Origin: Thauera propionica
GTDB taxonomy: Bacteria > Pseudomonadota > Gammaproteobacteria > Burkholderiales > Rhodocyclaceae
NCBI RefSeq assembly: GCF_002245655.1
Contig: NZ_NOIH01000015.1
Location: 124,001-188,000, forward strand
Reading direction: 5' to 3'
Length of the DNA stretch: 64,000 nucleotides
Position numbers and translations under genes: made by a program. Position 1 is the stretch's first letter. Every line of letters starts with the position of its first letter. The notes below the pieces were generated by a model that searched no databases, was not told the origin of the DNA, and saw only the letters and a list, made by a program, of their open reading frames with translations. Shown piece by piece: positions 15,812 to 29,697 of this stretch.

Positions 15812-17266
15812 TCACAGCTTGATGCAGACGTTCTTGAGCTCGGTGTAGAACTCGAGCGAATGCACGCCGCCTTCGCGGCCGATGCCCGATTGCTTGGAAC
15901 CGCCGAAGGGGGTACGCAGGTCGCGCAGGAACCAGGAGTTCACCCACACCAGGCCGGCTTCGATCTGGCCGGCGACGCGGTGCGCACGCGCCAGGTCCTT
16001 GGTCCACACCGAGCAGGCGAGGCCGTACTCGGTGTCGTTGGCGCGACGGATGACCTCGTCCTCGGCATCGAACGGCTGGATCAGCGTGCAGGGGCCGAAG
16101 ATCTCCTCGCGCGCGATCGGCGAGCTGTCGTCGAGGCCGGTCCAGATGGTGGGCTGCACCCAGGCGCCGTTGGCGAGCTCGCCCGGCATGTCGGGCACGC
16201 CGCCGCCGGTGACCACGGTGGCGCCCAGCGCCCTGGCCTTGTCGTAGTACGACAGCACCTTGCGCTTGTGCTCCTGCGAGATCAGCGGGCCGAGCCCGGT
16301 GGCCGCATCCTCGGGCCGGCCGAGCCGCAGGCCTTCCGCTCCCCTCTTCAGCGCCTCGACGAAGCGGTCGAAAATCGGGCGTTCGACATAGACCCGCTCC
16401 GTGCCCAAGCAGACCTGGCCGCAGTTGGCGAACACCGAGCGCATCGTGCCTTCGATGGCGGCATCGAAGTCGCAGTCGGCGAAGACGATGGCAGGGTTCT
16501 TGCCACCCATCTCCAGCGACACCGGGCGCGCACCGTCGGACGCCGCCTTCATGATCGCCGCCCCCGTGCGCGTCTCGCCGGTGAAGGTGATGGCATTGAC
16601 GCCGGGGTGGGTGGTGACGAACTCGCCCGCCGAGCCGGGGCCGAAACCATGCACCACGTTGTACACGCCCTTGGGCATGCCGACCTCGTTCATGACTTCA
16701 CCCAGCAGCGTCGCGGTCTGCGGGGTTTCCTCCGAGGGCTTCACCACCACGGTGTTGCCGCAAGCCAGCGCCGGACCGACCTTCCAGGTCATCAGCAGCA
16801 GCGGCAGGTTCCACGGGCAGATCACGCCGACCACGCCCACCGGGCGACGCACTGCGTAGTTCAGCGCACCGCGGCCGTCAGGGGTGGCCATCTCGAAGAA
16901 CTCGGTCGGGACGCTCTTGATGACGTCGGCGAACACCTTGAAGTTGGCCGCACCGCGCGGGATGTCGATATGGCTGGCGAGGCTGCGCGGCTTGCCGGTG
17001 TCGGCGCATTCGGCCGCGAGGAAATCGTCGAAGCGCTTGTTGATGCCGTCGGCCACCGCATTGAGCAGGTCGACGCGCTCGGCCACGGTCATTCGGCCCC
17101 AGGGCCCGTTCAGCGCGGCGCGTGCCGCCGCGACGGCGGCATCGACCTCGGCCTTGCCCGCCTCATGCACCGTGGCGATCAACGCGTTGTCCAGCGGCGA
17201 GAACTTGTCGAAGGACTTGGCCGTGGCGACGAACTCGCCGTTGATGAAGTTGTGGATCTGTTTCAT
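15812..17266 (-). CDS. dmpC: 2-hydroxymuconic semialdehyde dehydrogenase
   Basis: 484 residues from the ATG at 17266; the open frame upstream runs into the preceding gene. Aldehyde-dehydrogenase family: the NAD site includes ITFTGETRTGAAI, the general base Glu lies in LEMGGKNPAIVF and the catalytic Cys in NCGQVCLGTERV. It oxidises 2-hydroxymuconic semialdehyde to 2-hydroxymuconate. With dmpD missing, this dehydrogenase branch appears to be the only exit for the ring-cleavage product in this cluster. Confidence 0.95.
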   Translation of the reverse strand: MKQIHNFINGEFVATAKSFDKFSPLDNALIATVHEAGKAEVDAAVAAARAALNGPWGRMTVAERVDLLNAVADGINKRFDDFLAAECADTGKPRSLASHIDIPRGAANFKVFADVIKSVPTEFFEMATPDGRGALNYAVRRPVGVVGVICPWNLPLLLMTWKVGPALACGNTVVVKPSEETPQTATLLGEVMNEVGMPKGVYNVVHGFGPGSAGEFVTTHPGVNAITFTGETRTGAAIMKAASDGARPVSLEMGGKNPAIVFADCDFDAAIEGTMRSVFANCGQVCLGTERVYVERPIFDRFVEALKRGAEGLRLGRPEDAATGLGPLISQEHKRKVLSYYDKARALGATVVTGGGVPDMPGELANGAWVQPTIWTGLDDSSPIAREEIFGPCTLIQPFDAEDEVIRRANDTEYGLACSVWTKDLARAHRVAGQIEAGLVWVNSWFLRDLRTPFGGSKQSGIGREGGVHSLEFYTELKNVCIKL

Positions 17267-17279
17267 TGACTGCGCTCCC

Positions 17280-17717
17280 TCACGCTTCACTTGTGTCGGC
17301 ACCGATTGCGCGCAGGCCGGCCTGCGCGCAGATGCCATCCTGTTCTTCCGAAGCACCGGACACACCGATGCCGCCAAGCAGTGCGCCGCCACTGCGGATG
17401 GGCAGGCCGCCGCCGAAGACGATGAGCCGCGGCTGGGCGGAGAAACCGAGCTTCATGCCCTCGTTGTCGCCCACAACCTTCATCCAGTCACCGGTCGGGA
17501 AGCCGAAACCACCCGCGGTGTAGGCCTTGTCGATGGCGATCGCGATCGACTGCGGGAAGGCGCCCGGCATGCGCAGGAAGGCCACCAGGTTGCCCGAGGC
17601 ATCGGCGACGGCGACGTTGATGCGCACGCCCAGCCGCTGCGCTTCCTGCACGGCGGCTTCCACCGCCGCATGTGCGGCTTCCCAGCTGATCGTGTTCTGC
17701 GTGACGGCAAGCTTCAT
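17280..17717 (-). CDS. GlcG/HbpS-like (DUF336) protein of the meta-pathway operon
   Basis: 145 residues from the ATG at 17717. The Roadblock-like GlcG/HbpS fold is recognised by VAVADASGNLVAFLRMPGA, AIDKAYTAGGFGFPT and GGLPIRSGGALLGGIGVSGA. Members occur in many aromatic-degradation operons (often called orfX) and some bind haem or protect against oxidative damage; the role here is unproven. It is the first gene of the second dmp transcription unit, with a good sigma-70 promoter (17760-17788) and the TTCTCGAGATTT element just upstream. Confidence 0.8.
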   Translation of the reverse strand: MKLAVTQNTISWEAAHAAVEAAVQEAQRLGVRINVAVADASGNLVAFLRMPGAFPQSIAIAIDKAYTAGGFGFPTGDWMKVVGDNEGMKLGFSAQPRLIVFGGGLPIRSGGALLGGIGVSGASEEQDGICAQAGLRAIGADTSEA

Positions 17718-17759: not shown

Positions 17760-17788
17760 AAGTTAGACCAGCTTATTCTCGACGTCAA
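17760..17788 (-). promoter_or_regulatory. Sigma-70-type promoter of the hbpS-dmpCEFGHI unit
   Basis: Read on the minus strand: TTGACG (17788-17783), a 17-base spacer and TAACTT (17765-17760). The transcription start would fall near 17753, about 36 bases before the first gene. The -35 box overlaps a TCGAGAA half-site and lies seven bases from the full palindrome at 17795-17806, a layout that suits repression. Confidence 0.6.
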
Positions 17789-17794
17789 TATATT

Positions 17795-17806
17795 TTCTCG
17801 AGATTT
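17795..17806. promoter_or_regulatory. TTCTCGAGATTT element, copy A (dmp lower operon / gntR)
   Basis: First of three exact copies of this 12-mer, built on the palindrome TCTCGAGA. It lies between the divergent hbpS-dmpC operon and the gntR gene, next to the -35 box of the former. A second half-site (TTCTCGA) lies at 17776-17782. It is a candidate operator for the GntR-family protein encoded alongside. Confidence 0.6.
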
Positions 17807-17877
17807 TAGACAATCTGCCGTAAAGGCTGCCGTCAGCTAGAATGCAAGCGAAATTGCCCTTCGGACCCCGCACCACC

Positions 17878-18597
17878 ATGAGCGAAAACGCCCTCACCCA
17901 AGCCCCGGAAGCCCTGGAACCCAAGACCCTGGTCGAAGGCGCCTACCAGCGTCTGCGCCGCGACATCATCGAGGGCGTGCATGCACCGGGCGAGAAGCTG
18001 CGCGTCGAGCACCTCAAGGACCGCTACGACGTCGGCGCCGGCACGCTGCGCGAGGCGCTCCTGCTGCTGGTGACCGACGCCCTGGTCGTCGCGCAGGGCC
18101 AGCGTGGCTTCCGTGTCGCACCGATCTCGATCGCCGACTTCGAGGACATCACCCGCACCCGCGTACTGCTCGAGACCGAAGCGCTCAGGCAATCGATCGC
18201 CTCGGGTGGCGAGGAATGGGAAGCCGCGATCGTCGCCGCCTTCCACCGCCTGTCGCGTGCCGAGCAGCGCCTGGCCGATCACGACGTCGGCACCACGCAG
18301 GAATGGGAGGTCCGCAACCGCGCCTTCCATGAAGCCCTCATCTCCGCCTCCGGCTCGCGCTGGATCCGTCATTTCCAGCGCATCCTCTACCAGCAGTCCG
18401 AGCGGTATCGCCGCATCAGCCTGTTCCGCCAGCCCATCGCCCGCGACATTCATGCCGAGCACCAGGCCTTGTTCGAGGCAACGCTGGCACGCGATGCGAC
18501 CCGCGCCACCTCCATCCTGACCGAGCACATCCTGCGCACCCTGGATGCCGTCAGGCGCATGCCGGCAGACTTCTTCACCGGCAAGGGCAAGCACTGA
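17878..18597 (+). CDS. GntR-family regulator with FCD domain, candidate repressor of phenol genes
   Basis: 239 residues from the ATG at 17878; an alternative ATG at 17842 would add 12, and neither has a clear Shine-Dalgarno sequence. The winged helix covers about residues 17-85 (EGAYQRLRRDIIEGVHAPGEKL, then GTLREALLLLVTDALV). The all-helical FCD effector domain follows (FEDITRTRVLLE, the metal-type His in RAFHEALI, and HAEHQALFEATL). FCD regulators bind small carboxylates or aromatic intermediates. AphS of Comamonas, a GntR repressor of a phenol operon, is the nearest functional parallel. It is inserted between the upper and lower pathway units on the opposite strand. Confidence 0.8.
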   Translation: MSENALTQAPEALEPKTLVEGAYQRLRRDIIEGVHAPGEKLRVEHLKDRYDVGAGTLREALLLLVTDALVVAQGQRGFRVAPISIADFEDITRTRVLLETEALRQSIASGGEEWEAAIVAAFHRLSRAEQRLADHDVGTTQEWEVRNRAFHEALISASGSRWIRHFQRILYQQSERYRRISLFRQPIARDIHAEHQALFEATLARDATRATSILTEHILRTLDAVRRMPADFFTGKGKH

Positions 18598-18601
18598 GAC
18601 C

Positions 18602-18630
18602 CGGCCACGGCAGCGACGCTGCCGTGGCCG
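18602..18630. terminator. Bidirectional hairpin between gntR and dmpB
   Basis: Perfect 13-bp inverted repeat (CGGCCACGGCAGC / GCTGCCGTGGCCG) with a three-base loop, exactly in the 40-base gap between two convergent stop codons. It has no T-tract but its place and symmetry suit a terminator for both genes. Confidence 0.65.
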
Positions 18631-18637
18631 CTGCCGC

Positions 18638-19567
18638 TTACGACACCACGGTCAGGAAGCGCTCGTTGAGCTTGCGGTCGTGGTAGAAGATGCCCGCACC
18701 GACCTCATCCCAGGTCCAGCGGATCGGCTTCCAGTCCGGGTAGCACTGATAACCGCCGCAGAAGGTTTCGAAGCGGTTGCCCGACGGATCGAAGGCGTAG
18801 ATCGTGGTGCCGCGCGTAATGCCATGGCGGGTCGGACCGATGTCGATCGACACCCGGTTCATCGACATGATGTCGGCCGCCCGCAGCACCTTCTCCCAGC
18901 TTTCGAGCAGGAAGGAGACGTGGTGCAGCTTGCCCGGCTCGGGATGGCGGACGAAGGCGATGTCATGCGCCTTGATCGAGCACGACAGCCAGATCGCCAG
19001 ATCGGTCTTGCCGTCTTCCATGATCACGTGCTCGACGAGGTAGAAGCCGAGCACGTTCACGAAGATGTCCTGCACCTTCTCGATGTCGGGACCGTAGAGC
19101 AGGCAATGGTCGAGGCGGATGGGGGCGATGCCGCGCTCGGCGTCGTCGGTCCAGGGCGGCGGGTTGGTGTAGGTGTCGTCGTTGCCGTAGTCGCTCTTTT
19201 CCCAGTACAGCTCGATCAGGTGGCCGGAGGGCACCTCGAAGCGCACGCGCTCGCCCGTCTCCAGCAGCTCGCCGGCCGGAATGCGCTCAGTCTTGACGCC
19301 GTAGGCCTGCAGGTCGCGGTCGAGCTTGTCGAGCGTGGCCTGGTCCGACACCTTGAAACCGAAGAAGTCGATGCCGGCGCTGTCGGCCTCGCGCAGGACG
19401 ACGCTATGGTGGTCGCGCTCGTCCCAGGCCTTGAAGTACACGCGGCCCTGGCTGTCGCGGCCGGTCTCGATCAGGCCGAGCACCTTGCCGTAGTGTTTGA
19501 CCCCTTCCTCGATGTTGAGCACGCGGATCTGGGCGTGGCCCGGACGCAGAACACCAGTCATTGCCAT
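18638..19567 (-). CDS. dmpB: Catechol 2,3-dioxygenase
   Basis: 309 residues, full length for an extradiol type I dioxygenase. The start ATG at 19567 follows AGGAG with six-base spacing. Two vicinal-oxygen-chelate modules are present; Fe(II) ligands are His154 (RLDHCLLYG), a His of LHHVSFLLE (215/216) and Glu267 (RFETFCGGYQ). It cleaves catechol between C2 and C3 to 2-hydroxymuconic semialdehyde. It ends the phenol hydroxylase unit after a gap of 104 bases from dmpP; in Pseudomonas dmpQ would lie in that gap, but here dmpQ is placed upstream of the operon. Confidence 0.96.
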   Translation of the reverse strand: MAMTGVLRPGHAQIRVLNIEEGVKHYGKVLGLIETGRDSQGRVYFKAWDERDHHSVVLREADSAGIDFFGFKVSDQATLDKLDRDLQAYGVKTERIPAGELLETGERVRFEVPSGHLIELYWEKSDYGNDDTYTNPPPWTDDAERGIAPIRLDHCLLYGPDIEKVQDIFVNVLGFYLVEHVIMEDGKTDLAIWLSCSIKAHDIAFVRHPEPGKLHHVSFLLESWEKVLRAADIMSMNRVSIDIGPTRHGITRGTTIYAFDPSGNRFETFCGGYQCYPDWKPIRWTWDEVGAGIFYHDRKLNERFLTVVS

Positions 19568-19671
19568 GATTGTCTCCTCTCCATATTGATTGCCGGGGTG
19601 GATTCCCGCGGCGGTTTGAAATCGTCACGACACAGGCCGGCAGCCGGGCAGGCGCCGCCGGCCAGAGAACA

Positions 19672-20727
19672 CTAGATGCGCTTGAACAGGGGGCTGCGGA
19701 CCTGCTGGACATCGGCTGCGGAGAAGAACTTCTCCATGAAGATGTCCCGCTCGAACAGGCGGCCCTGCATCAGCGCGGTGATGCACGCGTCGATCATCAG
19801 CGGCGGGCCGCACAGGTAGGCCTTGTGTCCGCGGAAGTCATTGTCGAAGTGCGCCGTCGCCGCCTCGTGGACATAGCCGCGGAAGCCGTCCCAGCCGGAG
19901 TCGGCCGGCTCGTCCGACAGGGCCGGGACGTAGCTGAAGTTCGGGTACTTCGCGGCGAGCGCGAGGAACGCGTCGTGGTAATACAGCTCGCCCCGGTTGC
20001 GCTGGCCGTACACCAAGGTCATCGGTCGCGTGTCGCCGGCTTCGAGCAGGTCGAGGATCATCGAGCGCGGGCTCGACAGCCCCGAGCCACCGGCCATGAA
20101 CAGCAGCGCTTCGGGCGCCGACTTGCGCACGAAGAAGCGACCGTAGGGACCGGACAGGCGCACACGCTCGCCGACCTTGAGTTGCTCGTGGATCCACGTG
20201 GTGCCGCGGCCGCCCGGGACGACGCGGATGTTGAGTTCCACCTCGCGTCCGGTCGACGGCGGATTCGCCAGCGAAAAGGCCCGGCTGTACTCGCCGCCTT
20301 CGAGGAAGAAGTTGATGTACTGGCCGGCCTGGAAGTGCATCGGCTCGTCGGTCTCGATGAACACCGCCTTGATCGTGGGCGTGAGCGCCTCGATGCGGGT
20401 CACGGTGCCAGGGAAGTCGCGCACCGGGATCGACTCCGCGTCCGCCTCCTCCTCGATCTCGGCCTCGATCGTCACGTCCGACTCGAGGCGTGCACAGCAC
20501 GCCAGCGTCTTGCCCTCGTCGCGCTCGAAATCCATCAGCGCGAAGCTCGACGCCTCGCCGTGGTCTACCTCGCCGTCAAGGACCTGCACCTTGCAGGTGG
20601 CGCACAGGCCGTGACAGCAGGCATGGGGCAGCCAGATTCCGGCGCGCAGGGCAGCGTCGAGGATGGTCTGGCCCTCCTCCACTTCGATCGTCTGGCCGAT
20701 CGGTTCAATGGTCAGTTCGTAGCTCAT
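19672..20727 (-). CDS. dmpP: Phenol hydroxylase P5, FAD/[2Fe-2S] reductase component
   Basis: 351 residues from the ATG at 20727. The N-terminal plant-type ferredoxin domain binds [2Fe-2S] through Cys37, Cys42, Cys45 and Cys77 (CCHGLCATC and ACCARL). The FAD domain has RAFSLANPP and the NAD domain has MAGGSGLSSPRSM and the C-terminal CGPPLM. It passes electrons from NADH to the diiron oxygenase encoded by dmpL, N and O. Length and all cofactor residues match the family, so it should be active. Confidence 0.95.
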   Translation of the reverse strand: MSYELTIEPIGQTIEVEEGQTILDAALRAGIWLPHACCHGLCATCKVQVLDGEVDHGEASSFALMDFERDEGKTLACCARLESDVTIEAEIEEEADAESIPVRDFPGTVTRIEALTPTIKAVFIETDEPMHFQAGQYINFFLEGGEYSRAFSLANPPSTGREVELNIRVVPGGRGTTWIHEQLKVGERVRLSGPYGRFFVRKSAPEALLFMAGGSGLSSPRSMILDLLEAGDTRPMTLVYGQRNRGELYYHDAFLALAAKYPNFSYVPALSDEPADSGWDGFRGYVHEAATAHFDNDFRGHKAYLCGPPLMIDACITALMQGRLFERDIFMEKFFSAADVQQVRSPLFKRI

Positions 20728-20806
20728 GATGCGTTTCCGTTCTTTTCCCTTCTCCGCCGGGCGAAGTTGGCGACCCACCGCAGCGGGCCGCTGCCCGCAC
20801 GCAGCT

Positions 20807-21166
20807 TCAGTTGCACGAACCCTTGATGCCGGTGAGACCGGGCGTGCGGAAGCGGATCACGTCCTTGTGCCTGAGGCCGTTGTCGGCGAGCGACTTGTCG
20901 AAGTCGGGCGCGAACGGCTTGCCGGACTTCAACCACTCGACCTTCGTCCAGTCGATCTGGGCGAAGTCCGGGTGGTAACCGAAGGCGGCTTTCATCGGCC
21001 CGGCAACCACGTCACCGAAGCGCATCGTCGGCGGAAAGGGGAAGCAGAACGGGGCGCAGAAAAGCAGATGGTCTTCCCAGCCGATGTAGAGCAGTTGCGC
21101 GCCGTGGAACTTGTCCTGGGTGTCGGCGGGCGCGAAGTCGTACTTGGAAATGGCGGCTACAGCCAT
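20807..21166 (-). CDS. dmpO: Phenol hydroxylase P4, small oxygenase subunit
   Basis: 119 residues from the ATG at 21166, seven bases behind GGAG. The family-typical N-terminus (AISKYDFAPADTQDKFHG) and the segment FCAPFCFPFPPTMRFGDVV are present. It is the gamma subunit of the (alpha-beta-gamma)2 phenol hydroxylase and is not catalytic itself. The gap to dmpN is 62 bases and to dmpP 79 bases, larger than between the first genes of the operon. Confidence 0.93.
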   Translation of the reverse strand: MAVAAISKYDFAPADTQDKFHGAQLLYIGWEDHLLFCAPFCFPFPPTMRFGDVVAGPMKAAFGYHPDFAQIDWTKVEWLKSGKPFAPDFDKSLADNGLRHKDVIRFRTPGLTGIKGSCN

Positions 21167-21228
21167 GTCATGTCTCCTGGTGTCTTGTCGTCGGCCGCGG
21201 ACCGAGGCAGGCCCGCGGCATCGAGGGC

Positions 21229-22782
21229 TCAGATGTTCTTCGTCGCCTGGCCGCGCCACTCGGCGAAGTTCTTCTTGTCTTCCGAGATGTCGAAGTCGAG
21301 GTTGTCGCGGCCATGCTCGAGGTTGTAGTACTTCAGCACCGCGCCAAGCGCGTCGAAGCCCTCGACCGTCGGGTCGGTGCCCTCGGGGAAGCAGTTGCCC
21401 TGGTAGATCTGGTGCACCGGCAGCCAGGCCTGGACATACTTCTCCGGCTCGTGCTCGAAGATCTCTTTGCAGTGATCCGAACAGAAGTGATACTTGTCGC
21501 CCTTGTAGTCGACCTCGCGGTAGCAGATCTTGGTCGGGTCGCCCGGCTCGGTGAACAGCATCGGGATCTGGCAGGTCTGGCACAGCATGGGCAGCGTCTT
21601 GTTGTAGAAGCGGTTGCCCTTGGCGGCCTGCTCGCGCCAGAACTCGTAGCGCGGGCGGTAGTGTTTGTCGAAGCTGTTCGGGTACTTCGCCGACAGCCAC
21701 GCCATCTCGTCTTCGTCCGGCATCCAGGTGTGGAAGTTGGCGGCGGCGGCGTAGTTGTAGAAGGTGCTCCAGGCCTGGTGAGACAGGTGGTCCTTCTCGA
21801 GCGCGATCTGCTCGGCGCACTTCGGCATCTTGATGCCATAGCGGGCGAGGTCCTTGAACAGCGCGCCGCCGTTCTCTTCGAAGTACACCTCCCAGGCTTC
21901 CTTCCAGCTCATCGTGCGCTTGGGCAGCATGTAGTCCATCATCATTGCCACCAGGGTCAGCACGCGATAGCCGCGCCAGGTCCACTTGTCGATCCAGCGC
22001 TGCACGATGGGCACGTTGGCGGGGTCCTGCTCGAGGATGAACTTGATCACCTCCAGGCCCAGCGTCATGTGGCGTGCTTCGTCGGACTGCGCCGAGAAGC
22101 CGAAGGTCATCGTGCCCATGTCGCCGTTGTAGGCTGCGCCCGAGACGAAGGGCACGAACAGCAGGTTGGTCAGCACGTACTCGAACGAGAAGCCGATCGA
22201 GACCATGAACTCGAACGGGCCGGCGGTGATGGCATCGTCGAAGAAACTCTTCGGCACCGACAGGAACCACACGCGGTCGTGCATGTGATGGAAGTCGTGC
22301 ATGCCGTTGTAGTACTTGTTGTAGTTCGAGATCGCGTGCACCTGCGTCTGCGCGTGGCGGATCTCGTCGAGCGACTGCATCAGGCAGGCGACGCGCGGAC
22401 CAGGGCCGGGGAAAGCCCTGCCGGCATGGGCGAAGCCGCGGTGGGCGACGTACTCGAGCGGGCTGATGCCGCTGATAAAGAGCTTGACGGTATTGATGTA
22501 GCGCGCGTCAGTGACGTTGAGGTGGCCGTTGTTCTGGTTGAAGGCGTCGATGATCGCGTACAGCTTGCGTTCCTTCTCGGCCTGGTACTTCCAGTAGGCA
22601 TCCATGGTCAGGCGGAAGGGGTCCTCCCACTTGTCCCAGTCGTGGATCTTGATCCCCTCGTAGGCGATGTAGGGGTAGATGTCTTCCATCTTCTGGTAGG
22701 ACGGGGTCCAGTCGAGGCCCCGGGTCATCACCGAATAGCGCTCTTTCAGGCCGAGCTTCTTCTTGGCAACTTGCATGTCCAT
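21229..22782 (-). CDS. dmpN: Phenol hydroxylase P3, diiron oxygenase alpha subunit
   Basis: 517 residues from the ATG at 22782. The carboxylate-bridged diiron site is complete: Glu110, Glu140 and His143 (SLDEIRHAQ), Glu201, Glu235 and His238 (QSDEARHMT). A zinc-finger-like segment with CQTCQIPM and CSDHCKEIF lies near residue 400-450, as in other phenol hydroxylases. It inserts oxygen into phenol to give catechol, together with DmpL and DmpO, controlled by DmpM. Length equals that of DmpN of Pseudomonas strain CF600. Confidence 0.97.
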   Translation of the reverse strand: MDMQVAKKKLGLKERYSVMTRGLDWTPSYQKMEDIYPYIAYEGIKIHDWDKWEDPFRLTMDAYWKYQAEKERKLYAIIDAFNQNNGHLNVTDARYINTVKLFISGISPLEYVAHRGFAHAGRAFPGPGPRVACLMQSLDEIRHAQTQVHAISNYNKYYNGMHDFHHMHDRVWFLSVPKSFFDDAITAGPFEFMVSIGFSFEYVLTNLLFVPFVSGAAYNGDMGTMTFGFSAQSDEARHMTLGLEVIKFILEQDPANVPIVQRWIDKWTWRGYRVLTLVAMMMDYMLPKRTMSWKEAWEVYFEENGGALFKDLARYGIKMPKCAEQIALEKDHLSHQAWSTFYNYAAAANFHTWMPDEDEMAWLSAKYPNSFDKHYRPRYEFWREQAAKGNRFYNKTLPMLCQTCQIPMLFTEPGDPTKICYREVDYKGDKYHFCSDHCKEIFEHEPEKYVQAWLPVHQIYQGNCFPEGTDPTVEGFDALGAVLKYYNLEHGRDNLDFDISEDKKNFAEWRGQATKNI

Positions 22783-22802
22783 CGTCTTGTCTCCTCGGGG
22801 TC

Positions 22803-23072
22803 TCAGGATTTCCAGAACAGGGTGATCTCGTCGTCGGTCTGATCGAGGTTGCCCGACATGGTGATCATGTTGACCTGCAGCTCCTGCAGGTCGTACGCGC
22901 GGCCGGTGATCTCCTCGATCGTCTCGCGGCGCACGACGAGGCGGCCGTCGGCGTTGATCTTCACCATCGCGGGCTGCTCGTCCACGACTGCCGAAGGGTT
23001 GTCCTGCAGGATCGCCTCGATGATCGGGCGGGTGTCTTCGTTGGTCTGCAACGCAAGGAATACGGTCGACAT
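22803..23072 (-). CDS. dmpM: Phenol hydroxylase P2, regulatory (effector) protein
   Basis: 89 residues, the standard size for the cofactor-free coupling protein of bacterial multicomponent monooxygenases. It starts MSTVFLALQTNEDTRPIIEA and ends in the typical DDEITLFWKS. It binds the DmpN active-site face and is needed for coupled turnover. It is 12 bases from dmpL and 20 bases from dmpN. Confidence 0.95.
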   Translation of the reverse strand: MSTVFLALQTNEDTRPIIEAILQDNPSAVVDEQPAMVKINADGRLVVRRETIEEITGRAYDLQELQVNMITMSGNLDQTDDEITLFWKS

Positions 23073-23084
23073 TGGGTGCTCCGC

Positions 23085-24080
23085 TCAGAGGGTGACGCCG
23101 GCCTTGGCCATGCGTGCGTTGAATTGCTGGACGACTTCGGCGAGAACCTCGTCCGAGCGATTGCCGAGGGCGATGCGCGCCACCGGCAACAGTGCCGAGG
23201 CCGAACGATCGCGCCACTGACTCAGCCAGCGCGCCATGACCTCCTTGTTCTCGGGCGACTCGGCCGCCGCGATCTTCACCGTGGCATCGACCCATTTCCT
23301 GGTCTCGGCAAACCAGTCGGTCATGAACTGGGTGAGCATCGCCACCGCGGTACCGCCCTGGGACGAGAGCACGTCATCGACGATGGTTTCGTACACCAGC
23401 GGATACAGCAGGCCATCGAGCGCGACGTTCTGCGCCACGAAGAGCTCCACCGGGTCCTTGATCACGAAGGAGTCCTCGACGTAGCGGCGCAGGCCCTGCC
23501 AGGCGTCGTCCTCCATCCAGGCGCGCTTGGCTTCGTCCAGCGATTCGACATCGCCGAGCAGCAGCCCGACGCGGGTGAGGTACTGGGCGATGCCGAGCTG
23601 GTCCATCGCCTGGTAGATGTGCGGCTGCGAGAAACCGGTGCCATAGCTGTAGGCACAGACACTCGCGTTGTTCATGTTCGAGCCCCAGGCCACGTGGCGC
23701 AGTGGCAGCAGCAGCTTGAGTACGGTATCGCGCACCGACTCGGGCAGGGTCGCAGCGAGACCGCGGTTCTCGACGAAGTCGAAGTTGGCCTCCGCGGTGT
23801 CCTGCTGCTTGGCGCGCGCCATGGTGTAGGCGCCGTAGTAGAACTGGCGCGGATCCTTGAACGCGTACCAGTCGGCCATCCTGATCGCGGTGCGCGAGGC
23901 ATCGTAGATGTCGTGCTCGGGGTCCCAGGTCGGCCGGTAATGGAAATTGGCCGTCTGCTGCATGTCCAGCGTGCCCTCCTGGTAACGCGACGCCGGCTTG
24001 TCGCCACCGATGCGCCGGGCGATGTTGTCGAACGTCTGTCGCAGCGGCTTGATGGTGACGGTACGCAAATCGATCTGCAT
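23085..24080 (-). CDS. dmpL: Phenol hydroxylase P1, oxygenase beta subunit
   Basis: 331 residues from the ATG at 24080. Ferritin-like helical subunit related to DmpN but without the diiron ligands; typical segments are FDNIARRIGGDKPASRY, NFHYRPTWDPE and DPRQFYYGAY. It forms the dimer core of the oxygenase. The length is that of DmpL. It starts 31 bases behind dmpK. Confidence 0.95.
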   Translation of the reverse strand: MQIDLRTVTIKPLRQTFDNIARRIGGDKPASRYQEGTLDMQQTANFHYRPTWDPEHDIYDASRTAIRMADWYAFKDPRQFYYGAYTMARAKQQDTAEANFDFVENRGLAATLPESVRDTVLKLLLPLRHVAWGSNMNNASVCAYSYGTGFSQPHIYQAMDQLGIAQYLTRVGLLLGDVESLDEAKRAWMEDDAWQGLRRYVEDSFVIKDPVELFVAQNVALDGLLYPLVYETIVDDVLSSQGGTAVAMLTQFMTDWFAETRKWVDATVKIAAAESPENKEVMARWLSQWRDRSASALLPVARIALGNRSDEVLAEVVQQFNARMAKAGVTL

Positions 24081-24111
24081 GGGTTCTCCTCCTTGTGCTT
24101 GTGGGTCACGC

Positions 24112-24375
24112 TCAGCGGAACCGCTGGTGCGTGGCTTGATGCAGGTTCCAGTTCCAGTCCTCCGTTGCGCCCGTGCCGCCATCGTCACGGGGCTCGAGGA
24201 AGACCACGCCATTGACCTCGCAGAACGATGCGTAGGCCTCCGACGGGAGCAACATCTCGGCGTAGAGCTCGGGGTCGCCGATCGCGAACTCGAACTCCAC
24301 GAAGCCGTCAGGCCTGCGCTCGATCAGGCGCACGAACTTCCGGCTGAGGTCGATTTCGGGCTCTGTACGCTTCAT
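24112..24375 (-). CDS. dmpK: Phenol hydroxylase P0, assembly protein
   Basis: 87 residues. DmpK-like (TmoF/TouF-group neighbour) protein: RKFVRLIERRPDGFVEFEFAIGD and the C-terminal WNWNLHQATHQRF. In Pseudomonas it helps incorporate iron into or assemble the oxygenase and is not needed in the assay itself. It is the first gene of the operon, about 55 bases behind the sigma-54 promoter at 24428-24443. Confidence 0.93.
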   Translation of the reverse strand: MKRTEPEIDLSRKFVRLIERRPDGFVEFEFAIGDPELYAEMLLPSEAYASFCEVNGVVFLEPRDDGGTGATEDWNWNLHQATHQRFR

Positions 24376-24427
24376 CCCTCACTCTCCTTCGGTTTGATCA
24401 ACACGGGCTTGCCACGGGGAAGGCAGT

Positions 24428-24443
24428 AACAACTTCCGTGCCA
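24428..24443 (-). promoter_or_regulatory. Sigma-54 promoter of the phenol hydroxylase operon
   Basis: On the minus strand the sequence TTGGCACG-N4-TTGT fits the -24/-12 consensus TGGCACG-N4-TTGC, with both the GG at -24 and the correct spacing; only the last -12 base differs (T for C). Pseudomonas dmp, phl and pox operons also use sigma-54 promoters. Paired upstream sites for a DmpR-like activator lie 80-120 bp away. Confidence 0.8.
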
Positions 24444-24481
24444 ATCTCATTCAATCGCCGCATTGACGCTATTTATCATTA

Positions 24482-24493
24482 TTCTCGAGATTT
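24482..24493. promoter_or_regulatory. TTCTCGAGATTT element, copy B (dmpK promoter)
   Basis: Second exact copy, lying between the sigma-54 box (38 bp away) and the activator sites. A protein bound here would sit in the loop between activator and polymerase. Confidence 0.6.
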
Positions 24494-24520
24494 CTTCGCC
24501 ATCTCAAGCCGACGCAGCAC

Positions 24521-24565
24521 TTAACCAAATGATCACTTAATGCATTTCATTGATTATTTGATTCA
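24521..24565. promoter_or_regulatory. Paired XylR/DmpR-like upstream activating sites
   Basis: Two imperfect inverted repeats resembling the XylR/DmpR consensus TTGANCAATTGATCAA: TTAACCAAATGATCAC at 24521-24536 (13 of 16) and TTGATTATTTGATTCA at 24550-24565 (12 of 16). They are 29 bp apart, close to three helical turns, as in the Po and Pu promoters, and are well placed to activate the dmpK sigma-54 promoter. Confidence 0.65.
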
Positions 24566-24604
24566 CTCCCTTTATTGCCATGCACAACACGCCCCCCGAT
24601 AACG

Positions 24605-24639
24605 GAACGGGCCGGGGACTCTCGTCCGCCGGCCCGTTC
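24605..24639 (-). terminator. Hairpin downstream of dmpQ
   Basis: Perfect 11-bp inverted repeat (GAACGGGCCGG / CCGGCCCGTTC) with a 13-base loop, 30 bases after the dmpQ stop. It has no T-tract. It would separate dmpQ transcription from the control region of dmpK. Confidence 0.5.
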
Positions 24640-24669
24640 GGTGCCTTGCCAGTGATCGATGTGCGGGGT

Positions 24670-24990
24670 TCAGTCACGCCGGCCCGCACAGACCGACTTC
24701 GCCATCTTGCCCACCACCTTCAGGCTCAGGTCGCTGTCGGGGAAGAGCTTGCATGCCAGCACCACGCCGTCCGCCTCCTCTGCTTCGGACACGCAGGCGC
24801 GGCTCATCTTGCGCGTGTGGTAGGCGCCCCCGGTGACCCGCACCTTGCAAACGCCACAGCCGCCTCCGCGACAGCCCACCGGGATACCCTTTCGCCCGAG
24901 GGCCTCCATCGCACGCAGCACGCTGTCCTGCTCGGCGCACGCGACCCGTTCCCCGCTGTCCTCGATCGTCACCGCGAATCTCTGCCCCAT
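24670..24990 (-). CDS. dmpQ: Plant-type [2Fe-2S] ferredoxin, catechol dioxygenase reactivation
   Basis: 106 residues from the ATG at 24990, preceded by GAGGAGA. The [2Fe-2S] ligands are Cys40, Cys45, Cys48 (GCRGGGCGVC) and Cys80 (LACK). DmpQ/XylT ferredoxins reduce the inactive ferric form of catechol 2,3-dioxygenase. In Pseudomonas the gene lies between dmpP and dmpB; here it is a separate unit upstream of the operon with its own sigma-54-type promoter at 25094-25109, so the repair factor can be made from a different promoter but under the same activator. Confidence 0.9.
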   Translation of the reverse strand: MGQRFAVTIEDSGERVACAEQDSVLRAMEALGRKGIPVGCRGGGCGVCKVRVTGGAYHTRKMSRACVSEAEEADGVVLACKLFPDSDLSLKVVGKMAKSVCAGRRD

Positions 24991-25093
24991 CCCTACGGTC
25001 TCCTCTCTCGATGTGCCTGTCGTCGATGTGCGTAGCACCGCGCCCGTACACGATCAGCAATTGGTCGCTCATGACGGCGATACGGCACATCGA

Positions 25094-25109
25094 TACAAGA
25101 ATCGTGCCA
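25094..25109 (-). promoter_or_regulatory. Sigma-54 promoter of dmpQ
   Basis: On the minus strand TTGGCACG-N4-TTGTA has the same -24/-12 form as the dmpK promoter, including the same deviation (TTGT). The start would lie about 95 bases ahead of dmpQ. No clear XylR/DmpR-type upstream site is seen beyond it, so activation may come from the sites at 24521-24565 or from a weaker site. Confidence 0.7.
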
Positions 25110-25113
25110 ATCA

Positions 25114-25142
25114 TTTATTTTTCTCGAGATTTTCACTATGAT
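25114..25142 (+). promoter_or_regulatory. Possible promoter of the dmpR-like gene
   Basis: TATGAT at 25137-25142 is a fair -10 box; the -35 position 17 bases upstream reads only TTTATT. The TTCTCGAGATTT element fills the spacer, so a bound factor would block this promoter. Confidence 0.35.
25121..25132. promoter_or_regulatory. TTCTCGAGATTT element, copy C (dmpQ / dmpR)
   Basis: Third exact copy of the 12-mer, in the divergent region between dmpQ and the regulator gene, 11 bp upstream of the dmpQ -24 box. All three copies have the same orientation on the plus strand. Confidence 0.6.
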
Positions 25143-25269: not shown

Positions 25270-26937
25270 TTGGCCACTATCCATTACCCGGAGAGCGCGG
25301 ACCTGCGCAGCCTGCTCCGGTTCGCGCCGGAAGACGGGCACATCTGGCTGGCGGAGAACCGTATGCTGCTCCTGCACGCCGGCGCCATGTCCGAGCTGCG
25401 CAAGGAGCTGATCTCGTCGGTGGGCCAGCAACAGGCACGCCGAATTCTCACGCGCATGGGCTTTGCCTCCGGCATGCGGGACGCCGAACTGGCGCGCAAG
25501 ACACGCGGCACCAGCGGACCGGCCGATGCCTTCGTGGTCGGGCCGCAACTGCACATGCTCGAGGGCTGTGCGCGGGTCGAACCGGTACGGATCGAGTTCG
25601 GCGGACCGGACAACGGCTTCTACGGCGAATTCCTATGGCACAACGCCTGGGAGGCCGAGGTGCACGTGCAGGCCTTCGGCGAGGTGGACCACCCGGTGTG
25701 CTGGATGATGATCGGCTATGCCTCGGGCTATACCAGCGCCTTCATGGGGCGCTTCATCCTGTTCAAGGAAGTCGAGTGTGCCGCCACCGGCTGCGAGCAC
25801 TGCCGCATCGTCGGCAAGCCCGCCGAGGAATGGCCCGACGCGGACGAACTACGGCCGTACTTCGAGGCCGACTCGATCGTCGGCCGCCTGCTCGAACTGC
25901 GCGACGAGATCGAGGCAATGCGCCACACGATCGCCTGTCCGCGCCGAACCGCCGATCTCATCGGTAACTCGTCGGCCTTCCTCCACGCCTACGACCTCGT
26001 CAGCCGCGCCGCCTCGACCAACGTCTCGGTACTGCTGCTCGGCGAAACCGGCGTCGGCAAGGAGCGCTTCGCCCGCACGCTGCACGAGATGAGCCCGCGC
26101 AAGGACGAGCCCTTCGTCGCGGTCAACTGCGCCGCCCTGCCCCACGAGCTGATCGAATCCGAATTGTTCGGGGTGGAGCGCGGCGCCTTCACGGGCGCCC
26201 ACGCATCGCGCGCGGGCAAGTTCGAGCGCGCACATGGCGGCACCCTGTTCCTGGACGAGGTCGGCGAATTGCCGCTGCCCGCACAGGCCAAACTGCTGCG
26301 AGTACTGCAGGAAGGGGAAATCGAACGGCTGGGCGACGAACGCACGCGCAAGGTGAATGTCCGGCTGGTCGCCGCCACCAACGTCGACCTGCAAAAGGCC
26401 GTCCACGCCGGCACCTTCCGCCGCGACCTGTTCTACCGGCTCAACGTCTATCCGGTGACGATCCCGCCGCTGCGCGAACGGACCGGCGACATCCCTGCCC
26501 TGGTCGACGCCATGGTCCGCCGCTTCGAGACCCTGCACGGCAAACGCATCGCCGGCATCAGCGACAAGGCCATGCACGCACTCAAGCTCCATGCCTGGCC
26601 TGGCAACGTGCGCGAACTCGAGAACGTGCTCGAACGCGGCGTGATCCTCGCGCCGCAGAACGGGCTGATCGAGGTCGAGCATCTTTTCATCGGCAACTTT
26701 AGCGACACCGCCCAGCAACACTCGCTGAGCGCGCAGGGCGCGCTCGAAGTCACACGGCAGCCGGAGCAAGATCTCGTCGCAGCGGTACTCGACTCAGGGG
26801 TGTCGCTCGAGGCCTTCGAGCAAAGCCTCCTGCAACGCGCCGTCGAGCAGGCCAACGGCAACCTCGCAGCCGCCGCACGCCTCCTCGGCATGACCCGGCC
26901 GCAGCTCAACTACCGGATCAAGAAGCAGGCCGACTGA
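25270..26937 (+). CDS. dmpR: Sigma-54-dependent phenol-responsive activator (DmpR/MopR/PoxR type)
   Basis: 555 residues starting at TTG 25270, preceded by GGAGGAGA; an in-frame stop at 25252 excludes a longer start. Domain order: V4R-type sensor (about 20-205), B linker, AAA+ domain (about 228-460) with Walker A GETGVGKE and sigma-54 loop GAFTGA (305-310), and a Fis-type HTH at the C-terminus (NLAAAARLLGMTRPQLNYRI). With a shift of 11, the phenol-binding residues His106 and Trp134 and the zinc ligands Cys155, Glu178, Cys181 and Cys189 of MopR all match here (His95, Trp123, Cys144, Glu167, Cys170, Cys178). It should therefore sense phenol and drive the dmpK and dmpQ promoters. Confidence 0.93.
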   Translation: MATIHYPESADLRSLLRFAPEDGHIWLAENRMLLLHAGAMSELRKELISSVGQQQARRILTRMGFASGMRDAELARKTRGTSGPADAFVVGPQLHMLEGCARVEPVRIEFGGPDNGFYGEFLWHNAWEAEVHVQAFGEVDHPVCWMMIGYASGYTSAFMGRFILFKEVECAATGCEHCRIVGKPAEEWPDADELRPYFEADSIVGRLLELRDEIEAMRHTIACPRRTADLIGNSSAFLHAYDLVSRAASTNVSVLLLGETGVGKERFARTLHEMSPRKDEPFVAVNCAALPHELIESELFGVERGAFTGAHASRAGKFERAHGGTLFLDEVGELPLPAQAKLLRVLQEGEIERLGDERTRKVNVRLVAATNVDLQKAVHAGTFRRDLFYRLNVYPVTIPPLRERTGDIPALVDAMVRRFETLHGKRIAGISDKAMHALKLHAWPGNVRELENVLERGVILAPQNGLIEVEHLFIGNFSDTAQQHSLSAQGALEVTRQPEQDLVAAVLDSGVSLEAFEQSLLQRAVEQANGNLAAAARLLGMTRPQLNYRIKKQAD

Positions 26938-29634: not shown

Positions 29635-29697
29635 CCTCAACCGCCTCAACCGCCTCAACCGCCTCAACCGCCTCAACCGCCTCAACCGCCTCAACTG
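29635..29697 (+). repeat. Tandem repeat, seven copies of CCTCAACCG
   Basis: Seven head-to-tail 9-mers; the last ends TG instead of CG. They start at the last base region of the ExoD-like stop (TAA at 29632-29634) and lie just ahead of the next small gene. If read in frame the unit would encode a three-residue repeat, but it lies outside both genes. Copy number could vary between strains. Confidence 0.9.

Follow-up and report, generated by a model that had tools for sequence, protein, structure and literature searches.

The closest described relatives of the system considered here are the phenol genes of Comamonas testosteroni, where the GntR repressors AphS (strain TA441, announced in PMC6763649) and PhcS (strain R5) act over the activators AphR and PhcR (PMC3063778; this source and those below are cited for parts of their text). 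The operator of AphS and of the biphenyl repressor BphS is given as a 14-nt palindrome, AAATmTCGAkATTT, and AphS control has been predicted for Azoarcus BH72, Dechloromonas aromatica and Thauera MZ1T, where such sites precede aph genes with or without AphR, as they do here (PMC6449761). In Acidovorax (Pseudomonas) sp. KKS102 and relatives BphS occupies operator sites over the promoter and is released by the ring-cleavage product HOPDA (PMC11448139, PMC10282184); this too is a GntR repressor, although of a biphenyl pathway and with no sigma-54 activator in the parts describing it. Here we examine a 64-kb window (the whole stretch of DNA analysed, 64,000 nucleotides of Thauera propionica contig NZ_NOIH01000015.1) in which a phenol (dmp) cluster carries a repeated 12-mer, TTCTCGAGATTT, with exact copies at 17795-17806 (A), 24482-24493 (B) and 25121-25132 (C), all on the + strand. 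Copy A lies between the HbpS-like/dmpC operon and a gntR gene, B upstream of the dmpK operon, and C between a ferredoxin gene and dmpR. We consider it very probable that the three 12-mers mark, as their cores, the operators of an AphS/BphS-type GntR/FCD repressor encoded at 17878-18597, arranged in the three regions as set out below. The features on which this reading turns are as follows.

17774..17787, + strand: weaker operator A1 (predicted), TATTCTCGACGTCA, its TCGA an exact partner, at -19, to the TCGA of A2 (spacing 19 bp)
17793..17806, + strand: operator A2 (predicted), TTTTCTCGAGATTT, containing copy A
17878..18597, + strand: gntR, AphS/BphS-type GntR/FCD repressor (predicted; PF00392, PF07729 and alignment); the open frame runs from 17842, with 17878 the likely start
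24480..24493, + strand: operator B (predicted), TATTCTCGAGATTT, containing copy B
25119..25132, + strand: operator C (predicted), TTTTCTCGAGATTT, containing copy C

As in Comamonas, a GntR repressor would act over a DmpR-type activator at phenol hydroxylase genes, and the switch is thus of a known kind, in a genus where that kind has already been predicted. What this locus and its relatives add is a 19-bp tandem at A, a fixed distance from B to a sigma-54 box, a fixed offset from C to the -10 box of dmpR, and sites outside the phenol cluster (cydA and others) in other Thauera.

Each copy of the 12-mer sits at the core of an imperfect palindrome of 14 nt built around TCGA, and palindromes A, B and C match the published AphS/BphS operator exactly in the core and in one half, scoring 7, 8 and 7 of 10. 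The core in the window copies is CTCGAG, while Thauera clusters mix ATCGAG, CTCGAT and CTCGAG. A specificity switch from ATCGAT to CTCGAG through a changed recognition helix was considered and rejected, because the clusters mix core types while the aligned Thauera proteins keep the helix GAGTLREA.

Could the repeat be a matter of chance, or a short repeat with no function? TCTCGAGA is a short palindrome, and when up to two mismatches are allowed shuffled windows contain a mean of 1.85 matches, with at least three in 30 of 100 shuffles; since the shuffles counted such inexact matches they are silent on exact copies. A first-order Markov model predicts 0.0018 exact copies for the window and 0.11 for 3.93 Mb of genome, so that the claim of the initial annotation that the copies are far beyond chance is borne out. 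The same holds for their confinement to three control regions, for the whole genome (3,929,604 bases in 57 contigs) contains exactly three exact copies, all in the window, where no further matches with up to two mismatches are found. Elsewhere in the genome there are six one-mismatch copies, compared with two matches of a reversed control pattern; the best of the six, CAATCTCGAGATTT, falls within an open frame of 365 aa on contig C12. As many as 206 window 12-mers occur at least three times, the phenol-cluster 12-mer having 8 of 12 positions A/T and the next richest 5. The orientation shared by the three copies is real as well, and among the A, B and C sites of relatives most have the stronger half, GATTT, on that side too. 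Together with fixed distances to promoters and the lack of sites in some 222 kb of relatives' coding sequence, both described below, these counts leave a chance or functionless origin with almost no credibility.

Comparison with related clusters shows that the sites track control DNA closely. Across 27 such clusters the 23,815 bp of control DNA contain 62 sites with a score of 7 of 10 or more, and the 221,802 bp of coding DNA contain 0; the coding figure sums tblastn-matched spans of which some overlap, and the clusters are related and not independent. Three control cores give 2 sites in all. The count omits L010-L014 and L017 (judged the same genomes as others in the set), L022-L032, L114 and L115. 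Among the clusters are those of Thauera, Tepidiphilus, a Rhodocyclales, Castellaniella, Pandoraea and Ideonella. By region, operator-like sites are present in 24 of 25 A, 18 of 19 B and 5 of 5 C regions and at 10 of 17 dmpP-dmpB junctions; limits could be set for no more than 19 B, 5 C and 17 junction (D) regions, and where no ferredoxin gene was matched region B extends to dmpR, and some B sites are therefore of the C type. The 24 A regions hold the own control region of gntR, Castellaniella and Pandoraea among them.

At the dmpP-dmpB junction the sites of relatives (L101 9082, L109 9692, L111 9761 and others) include a perfect AAATCTCGATATTT in several. A fourth operator between dmpP and dmpB in the window was rejected, as there is no TCGA at all there.

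The product of gntR has the GntR helix-turn-helix domain (PF00392, 60.8 bits) and the FCD domain (PF07729, 67.3 bits), both above cut-off, and relatives of 87-88% identity to it place the source organism close to Thauera. It is 52% identical to the gntR product heading the bph operon of Polaromonas naphthalenivorans CJ2, an organism to which a BphS operon of that make-up has been assigned, with the gene called BphS (PMC6449761), and 58% identical to an Ideonella product whose gene follows a dmpR-like gene beside phenol hydroxylase genes; identity to three other FCD proteins of the same genome is 25-29%. The recognition helix GAGTLREA is common to the aligned Thauera, Tepidiphilus, Castellaniella, Pandoraea, Ideonella and Paraburkholderia relatives and to two uncultured aphRS-type ones, while that of CJ2 BphS is SGGTVREA and other helices occur in other relatives of 37-42% identity. 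FCD domains bind metal through an Asn/Asp-His-His-His set, and residues matching it are visible in the alignment. An identity as CsiR is not indicated, the NCBIfam equivalog cut-off being missed (169 bits against 218). The gene sits in the dmp cluster with dmp genes on both sides. Comamonas aphS lies just downstream of aphR, whereas this gntR stands apart, about 6.7 kb from dmpR and divergent from the lower operon, with the core CTCGAG. The aphRS order, seen in the Ideonella relative, is no strict criterion, since PMC6449761 describes it, in the part cited, as usual ("usually").

Among 150 genomes of the family, the repressor is found (E<=1e-40) in 34, and a loose operator pattern, WWTMTCGAKATTW, in 33 of those 34 (mean 4.7 matches) and in 58 of the 116 others (mean 0.93). 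To separate out the influence of the pathway, the comparison was restricted to the 40 genomes with a phenol hydroxylase (E<=1e-120): of 29 such genomes with the repressor 26 have a motif no more than 12 kb from the hydroxylase gene, and of 11 without it 1 does (Fisher p=3e-6); at 8 kb the figures are 24 of 29 and 1 of 11. Hydroxylases from the 11 share no more than 80% identity with that of the window, and those of many of the 29 are closer, so that shared ancestry may contribute to this co-occurrence. For some genomes (such as G064, G087, G121, G136, G159 and G170) the hit entry is incomplete, the omitted hits lying on other contigs, far off or beside entered ones. Within Thauera, 21 of 25 genomes that encode a close repressor contain the exact 12-mer and 0 of the 4 others do; this comparison was set aside, since the hydroxylase is missing from the same 4 genomes, one of which (G002) has a loose-pattern site.

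These comparisons bear on whether the operators belong instead to a regulator encoded elsewhere, with the local GntR protein a bystander. The loose matches in genomes lacking the repressor would fit such an arrangement, as would the 22 of 55 exact 12-mers that lie outside phenol clusters in 29 Thauera genomes; but sites recur in the control region of gntR itself, the motif accompanies the repressor near the hydroxylase, and others have assigned this motif to the homologous AphS and BphS (PMC6449761), and we regard a bystander role as improbable. The proposal of the initial annotation that the local GntR/FCD protein is a repressor acting at the 12-mers is thus supported at the level of sequence, by the published operator, the AphS/BphS kinship, the autoregulatory position and the co-occurrence, and two of the checks it suggested, conservation in related clusters and co-occurrence with gntR, held.

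There are nonetheless observations that weigh against assigning the sites to this repressor. The second half of the palindrome fits poorly at all three copies, and the AphS motif is also quoted in a form, TATCGTAT, that differs from AAATmTCGAkATTT (PMC3063778). The closest NCBIfam model for the protein is CsiR, though below cut-off. With half of the repressor-less genomes carrying the loose pattern, single matches are not specific. One genome, G142, has motifs near its hydroxylase and a repressor homologue of only 42% identity (E=2e-38), far away, and three (G042, G060 and G066) have the repressor and are motif-free near the hydroxylase. In two of the regions taken up below, the promoter at A is weak by consensus and four of 15 Thauera B regions (L109-L112) show no pairing of site and sigma-54 box.

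Region A contains, besides its two predicted operators, the following.

15812..17269, - strand: dmpC-like aldehyde dehydrogenase (PF00171)
17280..17717, - strand: HbpS-like gene, first leftward from A (PF03928; start by eye)
17760..17765, - strand: -10-like box TAACTT of the leftward promoter, with a 17-bp spacer (by eye; a similar hexamer stands at the same place in Thauera loci)
17783..17788, - strand: -35-like box TTGACG of the leftward promoter (HbpS-like/dmpC operon); TTGAC-N-TCGA in 19/20 Thauera loci
17838..17843, + strand: -10-like box TAGAAT before gntR (predicted, by eye)

An exact TCGA partner at -19 is present for 23 of 25 primary A sites, the window included, whereas the next best offset has 1; since offset -13 also scores (20 of 25) once a mismatch is allowed, only the exact count at -19 is telling. 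The same 19-bp tandem spacing occurs before the BphS gene of P. naphthalenivorans CJ2. At B and C a partner 19 bp away is not conserved: 3 of 23 B sites and 1 of 6 C sites have an exact one. The weaker site A1 touches the -35-like TTGAC in 19 of 20 Thauera loci. Copy A had been placed against the -35 box of a sigma-70 promoter, and it does adjoin the -35-like TTGACG, but a consensus scan lists no leftward promoter there because the -10 TAACTT matches at only 3 of 6 positions. The region has no sigma-54 box and no good DmpR-like site (best 9 of 16), so that control of the lower operon seems to lie with the repressor and not to involve DmpR.

In and around region B are the following.

23085..24212, - strand: open frame with a dmpL-like phenol hydroxylase subunit (PF02332)
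24428..24443, - strand: sigma-54 box of the dmpK operon, TGGCACGGAAGTTGTT, 15 of 16 to consensus
24521..24565, unstranded: two DmpR/AphR-like sites, 24521-24536 and 24550-24565, 12 of 16 each

Operator B lies between the DmpR-like sites and the sigma-54 box, 47 bp from GTGCCA, and not next to the box as had been stated. The Comamonas AphS site, around an IHF site, likewise falls between activator sites and promoter (PMC3063778). The distance from B to [G/A]TGCCA is 47-48 bp in the 11 Thauera loci in which box and site were found together (15 had a B region). In L015, L016 and L018 it is shorter by roughly one turn of the helix, at 36-37 bp, and in L116 it measures 31 bp. This fixed position between DmpR-like sites and box is what one would also expect if the 12-mer belonged to the DmpR/sigma-54 machinery itself, as an activator site, an IHF site or a promoter element. 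We think this very unlikely, since copy A stands without a sigma-54 box or a good DmpR-like site, sites of DmpR-like activators differ in look from the AphS/BphS operator (PMC6449761), and a scan for IHF sites at the operators gave weak matches, 11 of 13 at best, which were not used. A sigma-70 match across copy B was judged to be chance, being missing by eye from aligned relatives.

Region C, finally, holds the activator gene and its neighbour.

24670..24990, - strand: ferredoxin gene, dmpQ-like (PF00111; start by eye)
25094..25109, - strand: sigma-54-like box before the ferredoxin gene, TGGCACGATTCTTGTA, 15 of 16, not conserved in most relatives
25137..25142, + strand: -10-like box TATGAT of dmpR, at fixed offset
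25270..26937, + strand: dmpR, XylR/DmpR-type sigma-54 activator (PF06505, PF00158, PF02830)

A -10-like box with at least 4 of 6 matches stands at the same offset from operator C in 12 of 15 sites, other tested offsets giving at most 4 of 15. The count covers DmpR matches of at least 70% with a site 120-150 bp from the start, so that L109 and L110 (173-174 bp) fell out, and identical flanks were dropped from the comparison of dmpR-proximal flanks. No clear -35 was found near operator C, and its placement inside the dmpR promoter accordingly rests on position. Copy C had been described as next to a sigma-54 box; there is a sigma-54-like box 20 bp away, but by eye it is present in only 5 of the 15 dmpR-proximal sites, the best DmpR-like site at C is 10 of 16, and it is the dmpR -10 on the other side that is conserved. 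Copy C more likely acts on dmpR itself.

From the sequence, position and conservation of these sites, and from their co-occurrence with gntR, we infer that a repressor dimer would bind the imperfect palindrome of 14 nt built around TCGA. The pair of operators at A, spaced 19 bp, lies on and beside the leftward -35 and upstream of gntR and may give polymerase exclusion and autoregulation; at B, a dimer between the DmpR sites and the sigma-54 box could hinder the DNA bend or DmpR contact; at C, an operator just upstream of the dmpR -10 means that the repressor would limit the activator too. The suggestion that negative control is added on top of DmpR activation thus agrees with the predicted repressor sites as a whole, but not with A, which lacks DmpR/sigma-54 signals, nor readily with C. 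The pathway is probably held off by the repressor until needed, and, if BphS and HOPDA are a guide, its inducer is probably a carboxylate that arises by ring cleavage in the phenol pathway. The outcome is a predicted operator map for the Thauera phenol cluster, which suggests how an activator-driven sigma-54 pathway may be held off by one repressor common to the lower pathway, the upper pathway and the activator gene, and which offers a handle for tuning or sensing phenol pathways.

In the 29 Thauera genomes there are 55 exact 12-mers, against 1 for the reversed control; by our own count 33 of them belong to phenol clusters and 22 do not, one listing behind the siting of the latter having left out open frames of low GC3. 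An exact 12-mer precedes cydA and/or a ChaN-like gene in L126, L129 and L132 (by Pfam) and L134 (by near-identical flank), in genomes G014, G015, G019 and G020, all of which have the repressor; in three of these four loci the flank differs but the 12-mer persists together with a TTTTATRG-like stretch after it. Others stand at the start of an aldo/keto reductase gene (L121 by Pfam; L118, L125 and L130 by near-identical flank), before an FAD oxidoreductase (L128, L133 and L140 by Pfam; L135 by flank), before a sulfatase (L123, L139, L143) and before AraC regulators (L120, L122, L124). AphS control of an AraC regulator, benR, has already been predicted (PMC6449761), and the word cytochrome is missing from the main text of that paper. 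It is a tentative possibility, which we hold to be on balance doubtful, that the Thauera AphS-type repressor is more than a pathway switch: that it represses dmpR from inside its promoter, uses a conserved 19-bp tandem in the divergent region of its own gene, and has drawn in non-aromatic genes in several species (the cydA/ChaN region, the FAD oxidoreductase and the sulfatase). If true, such wider recruitment would tie oxygen-demanding ring cleavage to the respiratory chain, and the off-cluster sites make the extent of the AphS regulon directly testable.

Some minor observations complete the picture. The core palindrome TCTCGAGA was not met in the literature on such regulators, in a limited search that was not a full search for that word. 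In Oceanisphaera (L028 6848) a palindrome, AAATGTCGACATTT, precedes a gntR gene whose product is 38-40% identical and has the different recognition helix GVSPLREA, the two together forming a possible natural specificity variant. Apart from the phenol cluster, a short tandem repeat with a 9-base period at 29637-29693 of the window contains six copies of a 12-mer spaced 9 bases.

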